From contig JAMCWE010000155.1 in NCBI GenBank assembly GCA_023475265.1, positions 1 through 64,000 of the forward strand: a DNA stretch of 64,000 nt, given 5' to 3'. Made by a program: the position numbers and the translations under genes. The DNA is from Bacteroidota bacterium. GTDB lineage: Bacteria; Bacteroidota; Ignavibacteria; Ignavibacteriales; Ignavibacteriaceae. Under the pieces are notes generated by a model that did no database searches, was not told where the DNA came from, and worked only from the letters and a program-made list of their open reading frames with translations. Of this stretch, positions 13,954 through 14,379 are shown one piece after another. The number at the start of each line of letters is the position of its first letter. Position 1 is the stretch's first letter.

Positions 13954-13985
13954 ATTGACAAGAACTTCTATTAGAGTTATCTTTG
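13954..13985 (+). promoter_or_regulatory. Probable promoter of the met leader-riboswitch-metYX unit
   Basis: ATTG at 13954-13957 is followed, after 20 bases, by TATCTTTG at 13978-13985. This matches TTTG-N19..21-TAnnTTTG with one mismatch in the upstream box. The leader-peptide ATG is at 13997, again just after the expected transcription start, as in the threonine operon. Confidence 0.6.
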
Positions 13986-13996
13986 CCAAAGTTAAA

Positions 13997-14098
13997 ATGA
14001 AAACAGAAAAATTAAATATCGTAAATAAAGAAAATCAAATGGCAATGTGTCTTTGCTGTATGATGATGTGTATGTCATCATGGAAGGACACACCTTAA
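13997..14098 (+). CDS. Met/Cys-rich leader peptide (33 aa)
   Basis: The frame encodes 33 residues beginning MKTEKLNIVNK. The centre is extraordinarily rich in sulfur amino acids: residues 15-26 read MAMCLCCMMMCM, giving six internal Met and four Cys. It ends at TAA 14096-14098. The codon run lies in the 5' arm of a long hairpin followed by an intrinsic terminator, so it should act as a sensor of charged Met- and Cys-tRNA. It precedes a SAM-I riboswitch and metY-metX, whose products make homocysteine. The role is inferred from composition, position and RNA folding. Confidence 0.8.
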   Translation: MKTEKLNIVNKENQMAMCLCCMMMCMSSWKDTP

Positions 14099-14156
14099 TT
14101 ATAAATAAATAAGAAATTAAGAATAAGCCCTTCCGAGACCAAATCGCGAAGGGCTT
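14046..14156 (+). promoter_or_regulatory. Met/Cys attenuator RNA
   Basis: A pause hairpin forms from TGTGTCTTT (14046-14054) with AAGGACACA (14084-14092), capped by ATGATGA (14060-14066) with TCATCAT (14075-14081). One strand contains the Met/Cys codons. The alternative pairing GGAAGG (14082-14087) with CCTTCC (14129-14134) would take apart the following terminator. This gives the same three-state logic as the threonine attenuator. The antiterminator is short (6-7 bp), so its stability should be calculated. Confidence 0.65.
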
Positions 14157-14160
14157 TTTG
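14125..14160 (+). terminator. Attenuator terminator before the SAM-I riboswitch
   Basis: The stem AAGCCCTTC (14125-14133) / GAAGGGCTT (14148-14156) is followed by TTTGTTT. It lies after the leader peptide and about 40 bases before the riboswitch aptamer, so it can stop transcription before the aptamer is made. Confidence 0.88.
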
Positions 14161-14200
14161 TTTGAGAAAAAATGACTTAAAAAAATAAAAATATTTAAAG

Positions 14201-14328
14201 CTCTTATCGAGAAAGGTTGAGGGATCAGGCCCTGTGAAACCTTAGCAACCGCCCCGACATAATCGGGGGACATGGTGCTACTTCCTGCCCGCTGCTGGTT
14301 TGACCAGCAAGTAAGGGAAAGATGAGAG
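14201..14328 (+). ncRNA. SAM-I (S-box) riboswitch aptamer
   Basis: The conserved S-box core is present: CTCTTATC opening P1, GAGGGATCAGGCCCTGTGAA with the kink-turn and P2, CCTTAGCAACC, a GC-rich P3 hairpin (CCCCGACATAATCGGGG), GGTGCTACTTCCTGC, a P4 hairpin around GCTGCTGGTTTGACCAGC, and GATGAGAG closing P1 at 14321-14328. SAM binding would stabilise P1 and allow the terminator at 14341 to form. It controls metY and probably metX. Confidence 0.96.
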
Positions 14329-14340
14329 AAGAAGTTTTAT

Positions 14341-14379
14341 AAACCTCTTCGAAAAATCTTTCCGAAGAGGTTTTTTTTT
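14341..14379 (+). terminator. SAM-I riboswitch expression-platform terminator
   Basis: The stem AAACCTCTTCG / CGAAGAGGTTT is followed by a long T run. The sequence GAAGAAGTTT just before it can pair with AAACCTCTTC as antiterminator, with one mismatch, when P1 is open. Confidence 0.94.

Follow-up and report, generated by a model that had tools for sequence, protein, structure and literature searches.

The metY gene in the analysed DNA, a 64,000-nucleotide stretch from an Ignavibacteriaceae bacterium (the window), is very probably controlled by classical ribosome-mediated attenuation placed in series with a SAM-I riboswitch. A promoter, a leader ORF, a first terminator (T1), the SAM-I aptamer and a second terminator (T2) follow one another within 13955-14379, with metY and metX downstream (Table 1). 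The initial annotation had described a 33-residue ORF with Met and Cys at residues 15-26, a hairpin over these codons, an intrinsic terminator that an alternative pairing could open, and a complete SAM-I element with its own terminator ahead of metY. All of these elements were found: 10 of the 12 residues are Met or Cys, the hairpin has an energy of about -20 kcal/mol, GGAAGG at 14082-14087 can pair with CCUUCC at 14129-14134 as an antiterminator opposing T1, and the full-length RF00162 match is followed by T2 and by a gene identified as metY by TIGR01326.

Table 1. Features of the leader region and the genes downstream (window coordinates)
Feature	Position	Strand	Basis or remark
Promoter, TTGACA + 17 nt + TATCTTTG (Bacteroidota TTG/TAnnTTTG type)	13955..13985	+	predicted from sequence
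Promoter boxes	TTGACA 13955-13960; TATCTTTG 13978-13985	+	
Leader ORF, 33 codons, MKTEKLNIVNKENQMAMCLCCMMMCMSSWKDTP	13997..14098	+	homologues; frame-specific Met/Cys enrichment
Met/Cys run, codons 15-26, MAMCLCCMMMCM	14039-14074	+	10/12 Met or Cys
Hairpin 1:2 (protector), control codons : leader tail	14046..14092	+	-19.9 kcal/mol; within minimum-energy fold
Region 2, GGAAGG, antiterminator 5' strand, last leader codons	14082..14087	+	folding; compensatory changes with region 3
Region 3, GCCCUUCC, partner of region 2 (antiterminator) or region 4 (terminator)	14127..14134	+	
T1 intrinsic terminator: region 3, loop, region 4, U-tract	14127..14159	+	-15.1 kcal/mol
Region 4, GAAGGGC	14148-14154	+	T1 3' arm
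SAM-I riboswitch aptamer	14201..14328	+	RF00162, 77 bits, full length 1-108, E = 2.5e-16
Candidate antiterminator, SAM-I expression platform	14328..14350	+	folding, -6.1 kcal/mol; inverted repeat
T2 intrinsic terminator, SAM-I expression platform	14341..14379	+	-14.9 kcal/mol, U9 tail
metY, O-acetylhomoserine aminocarboxypropyltransferase	14452..15789	+	TIGR01326, 699 bits vs cut-off 495
metX, homoserine O-acetyltransferase	15913..17082	+ (metY strand)	NF001209 above cut-off

Between 7082 and 17082 the window carries, in this order, genes for aspartate kinase/homoserine dehydrogenase, thrC, proC, the leader/SAM-I region, metY and metX, a grouping of threonine and methionine synthesis genes; thrC and proC also lie upstream of many of the homologous leader/SAM-I loci.

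The leader is conserved as a set of codons. Over 58 distinct leaders, Met and Cys codons made up 442 of 1568 in the ORF frame as against 150 and 32 in frames +1 and +2, respectively; at every one of the 58 loci these codons were most abundant in the ORF frame. Both Cys codons are used (TGT 141 times and TGC 87 times), and all of the ORFs remain open although the length of the run varies. A separate tally of 36 leaders showed that Met and Cys account for 13% and 12%, respectively, of the residues after the start. The order and position of the run vary freely between lineages while its Met/Cys content is kept. This conservation, together with the frame-specific enrichment, rules out a chance ORF.

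The initial annotation had proposed RNA folding and a search for compensatory stem changes as checks. The leader region 13990-14165 folded with a z-score of -5.1, none of 200 shuffled sequences being as stable, and hairpin 1:2 was part of the minimum-energy fold. Region 2 sits in the last leader codons, or just past the stop codon in a few loci, and its duplex with region 3 had a mean energy of -11.2 kcal/mol over 36 loci. When region 3 was permuted among loci the energy was -10.0 kcal/mol (sd 0.24), with none of 2000 permutations as low as observed, and when region 2 was shuffled it was -5.0 kcal/mol, these statistics on the 36 loci being ones that ignore kinship between loci. Compensatory changes were seen at three of the eight positions of the 2:3 antiterminator (A-U to G-C; G-C to A-U; G-C to C-G or U-A). 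In family f7 and two loci of family f43 the 2:3 pairing is 8/8 where the 3:4 pairing is only 6/8, indicating that 2:3 does not simply arise from the terminator pairing. Conservation of hairpin 1:2 is lower than that of 2:3 and of the Met/Cys codons; when no ribosome is present the hairpin blocks 2:3 well in the window, and strongly in only part of the homologues.

The effect of ribosome position was examined in a stall model in which the RNA is free from 14 nt ahead of the A-site. With the A-site at any of codons 15-25, 2:3 would form before region 4 has been transcribed, and at codon 26 it would do so weakly; from codon 27 onwards, the stop codon included, it would be absent. The control codons occupy positions 15-26. 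At equilibrium T1 (-15.1 kcal/mol) was stronger than the antiterminator (-10.9 kcal/mol), in the stalled state too. The terminator won in nearly every locus once region 4 was made, and equilibrium folding gave no antitermination. These energies imply that, if the model holds, antitermination must be kinetic. Leader codon enrichment, T1, an exclusive antiterminator and the placement of the control codons, all marks of a trp-type attenuator, were observed, as were two marks of a SAM-I switch, namely an RF00162 score of 77 bits against a gathering score of 44.4 and T2 with a candidate antiterminator. T2-like hairpins of the AAACCUCUUC..GAAGAGGUUU type occur in most leader-bearing relatives.

An improbable alternative is that the leader is a nascent arrest peptide or a small protein rich in Met and Cys and that it detects some other signal, for instance copper, sulfide or oxidation, to which T1 responds. 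A Met/Cys-rich run could bind soft metals, and the leaders of family f1 have a common peptide tail, SSRKDTA. This tail is, however, accounted for by the RNA role of region 2, and it changes along with the pairing. Arrest peptides keep fixed residues, whereas here the order and position of the run are free and only its composition is retained, and the targets, metY and cysH, belong to the cognate pathway of the two amino acids.

Attenuation by codon reading, the preferred reading, is also favoured by how the parts recur. Leader, T1-type hairpin and SAM-I were found together at 58 distinct loci, which belong to the window's class and to a second order within the phylum, a total that counts one twice-found locus once and includes four loci lacking the U-tract. 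Searching with an HMM built from ten leaders gave 20 strong matches at E <= 1.5e-6, the window among them, spread over 18 genomes. A SAM-I element lay downstream on the same strand at all 19 matches outside the window, as it does in the window, which is more than chance. The named records among the matches are Ignavibacteria. A strict DNA pattern scan of genome contigs returned several chance matches outside Bacteroidota, those confirmed by SAM-I being Ignavibacteria or Bacteroidetes MAGs, and the plasmid search gave no match. Inspection of the regions upstream of RF00162 matches revealed twelve further tandem loci missed by the HMM (families f1, f2, f3, f5 and f7), whose leaders diverge strongly in sequence yet retain Met and Cys, as in MKIKNLNIIGNFSNMCMRMQHIY, MKLEKTNIALKEIMCMRSCKIMCKHNSGRD and MKNTKLHKEINKGMCLCRMGMRMHSPAEGTV; a phylum sample of SAM-I loci added four more, of family f43.

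The association was also seen from the terminator side. A DNA pattern for the T1 hairpin, blind to leader and SAM-I, was run on 117 genomes of the order of G738 and 30 loci were fetched. A Met/Cys leader lay just upstream at 23 of them; all 23 had SAM-I downstream, and metY was the next long ORF in 21. The hairpins lacking a leader had neither SAM-I (0/7) nor metY (0/7). The initial annotation had staked its reading on the leader being kept in relatives that have the SAM-I element. This held in part. Wherever the leader recurs, across several families as well as a second order of the phylum, SAM-I accompanies it; in the class, however, both leader and T1 are missing from most of the SAM-I loci. 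As T1 is normally absent along with the leader, the attenuator looks like a module that is either there or missing as a whole.

The distribution bears on a second alternative, that T1 only ends transcription of the upstream thr-proC genes, or has decayed, and that metY is controlled by SAM-I alone. T1 does lie downstream of proC on the same strand, most relatives use SAM-I only, and the U-tract has been lost in one genome (G269). Yet a conserved promoter and leader intervene between proC and T1, T1 covaries with the leader tail, leader and T1 reappear together with SAM-I in a different order within the phylum, and leaderless loci are normally devoid of T1. Covariation, promoter position and recurrence elsewhere rule out T1 as the upstream operon terminator, and the alternative as a whole is very unlikely. 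It is scarcely credible that the UG-rich stretch serves as an RNA structure or a protein-binding site and that the ORF is incidental. AUG and UGY codons are indeed rich in UG and form part of the stable hairpin 1:2, but the enrichment is confined to the ORF frame at all 58 loci with both TGT and TGC in use, and the hairpin is less conserved than the codons.

The T1-type hairpin is present at all 58 loci and is followed by a U-tract at 54. Three of the remaining loci (L141, L200 and L205 in G204, G383 and G287, family f5) keep the Met/Cys leader, the CGAAGGGC/GCCCUUCG pairing and SAM-I, with a 3:4 hairpin end of ...GACGGGCT/GACTGCAT; their terminator is possibly Rho-dependent or otherwise different. 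The fourth, L064 in G269, retains the leader and the 3:4 hairpin and has AAAATATT in place of the U-tract; the usual promoter was not recognised there, as if this attenuator were in decay.

Transcription is expected to start near 13990, about 7 nt before the leader ATG, because the TATCTTTG box was placed at -12 to -5 as in Flavobacterium, where a -7 box has been mapped at these positions (PMC9723704). In 18 of 20 homologues the promoter is conserved, 9-12 nt ahead of the leader start codon. Upstream of SAM-I, its distance is 219-253 nt at the leader-bearing loci of families f1 and f2 and, where it was recognised, 51-91 nt at SAM-I loci of the class that lack the leader. No TTG/TAnnTTTG match was found between T1 and SAM-I, which rules out a second promoter of this type there. 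A conserved TGAC(A/T)TAA occurs between T1 and the start of SAM-I in most f1 loci (14160-14200 in the window); it can be likened to a -35 box, and a start from there would truncate the aptamer.

Among the 20 loci found by the HMM, 17 tandems precede metY, two precede cysH (APS/PAPS reductase) and one is cut by a contig end. The two in which cysH takes the place of metY are L061 and L093 (G358 and G402). G358 also has a third tandem copy (L118/L287), whose leader carries seven Cys and two Met codons before SAM-I and which is followed by a gene for a MetY-related enzyme 36% identical to MetY. At loci of families f5 and f7 and some of f43 (L288, L291-L293, L290, L297, L312, L318) the first gene after the tandem encodes a small protein, apparently DsrE-like or CoA-binding by sequence reading. 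Some genomes carry two or three tandem copies, which points to a small sulfur-assimilation regulon.

Taken together, these observations suggest a two-stage gate. The promoter would give a nearly leaderless mRNA with the Met/Cys ORF as its first feature. Given an ample supply of charged Met-tRNA and Cys-tRNA, translation would proceed to the stop codon and the ribosome would cover region 2, leaving region 3 to pair with region 4, and transcription would stop at T1. When Met or Cys is short, the ribosome would stall in the run, open hairpin 1:2 and free region 2, which could then pair with region 3 ahead of region 4, and RNA polymerase would continue into SAM-I. There, bound SAM would let T2 form and terminate transcription, and absence of SAM would allow transcription into metY. 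Since the run consists of codons for both amino acids, shortage of either should suffice, and the anatomy predicts the logic (Met OR Cys starvation) AND low SAM. The AND gate of two terminators put forward by the initial annotation is thus supported by the parts, their conservation and the compensatory changes, and its input from charged tRNA is refined to starvation for either amino acid.

Serial control of the same genes is known in another form. A T box followed by SAM-I precedes methionine genes, including metX and metY (PMC9481103), and shares with the window two serial terminators, one for Met-tRNA charging and one for SAM, and the logic of high uncharged tRNA AND low SAM. A T box, however, binds one tRNA directly, whereas here a translating ribosome would read Met and Cys codons; a T box was ruled out as the tRNA sensor of the window, as an Rfam scan of the whole window gave SAM-I as the only match. 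The trp, his and ilv attenuators are built alike, with control codons in a short leader ORF, a protector hairpin, an antiterminator and an intrinsic terminator; unlike them, the window mixes control codons for Met and Cys of one pathway and has a riboswitch with its own terminator downstream. Cys-codon leaders are represented by the mycobacterial polycysteine sORFs (Canestrari 2020, cited in PMC9094748; PMC1262725) and by uORFC-8-2 ahead of cysS (PMC8632094). These are likewise short ORFs with Cys runs through which genes for cysteine or sulfur metabolism are attenuated, and neither a Met run nor a riboswitch is described for them; the mycobacterial ones are leaderless, as the window transcript nearly would be, and differ in lacking conserved intrinsic terminators.

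Other known leaders share part of this arrangement. A Xanthomonas SAM-I riboswitch binds uncharged initiator tRNA (PMC7270179), such that SAM and Met-tRNA status both feed one met leader, but it is a single translational platform with direct tRNA binding and lacks both a leader peptide and a separate terminator. B12 riboswitches occur with uORFs at metE and ppe2 of M. tuberculosis (PMC11260477), so that there, too, the leader of a methionine gene contains both a riboswitch and a short ORF that is translated; the metE uORF, in contrast, lies inside the aptamer and acts in translational control, with no codon-reading terminator in series. In Flavobacterium psychrophilum, leader-peptide attenuation has been noted upstream of amino-acid operons (PMC9723704). 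The initial annotation knew of no described pairing of a Met/Cys leader with SAM-I, and neither a leader-peptide attenuator placed in series with SAM-I nor a mixed Met/Cys control run turned up in our searches of the open-access literature. Each module is known, and so is the gate logic in its T-box form, but the combination appears undescribed and is widespread.

It is likely, at somewhat lower confidence than for the window itself, that the Met/Cys leader attenuator and SAM-I in series form a Bacteroidota-wide module that gates metY and genes of sulfate assimilation by two inputs. No earlier case would then be described in which one leader joins codon-reading attenuation to a metabolite riboswitch, each with its own terminator, and the attenuator would be one whose control codons are a mixture for two amino acids of the same pathway. 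To our knowledge, leader peptides of Bacteroidota have been little studied, and the tandem would provide a conserved, testable family of them. If the reading is true, a T box elsewhere and a ribosome-read leader in Bacteroidota each stand in line with SAM-I on the same genes, and two tRNA-charging sensors joined to the same riboswitch would point to convergent selection for a two-input gate. The leader would then be a natural AND gate that is directly testable, and it raises the question of why the cell reads Met/Cys supply and SAM separately.
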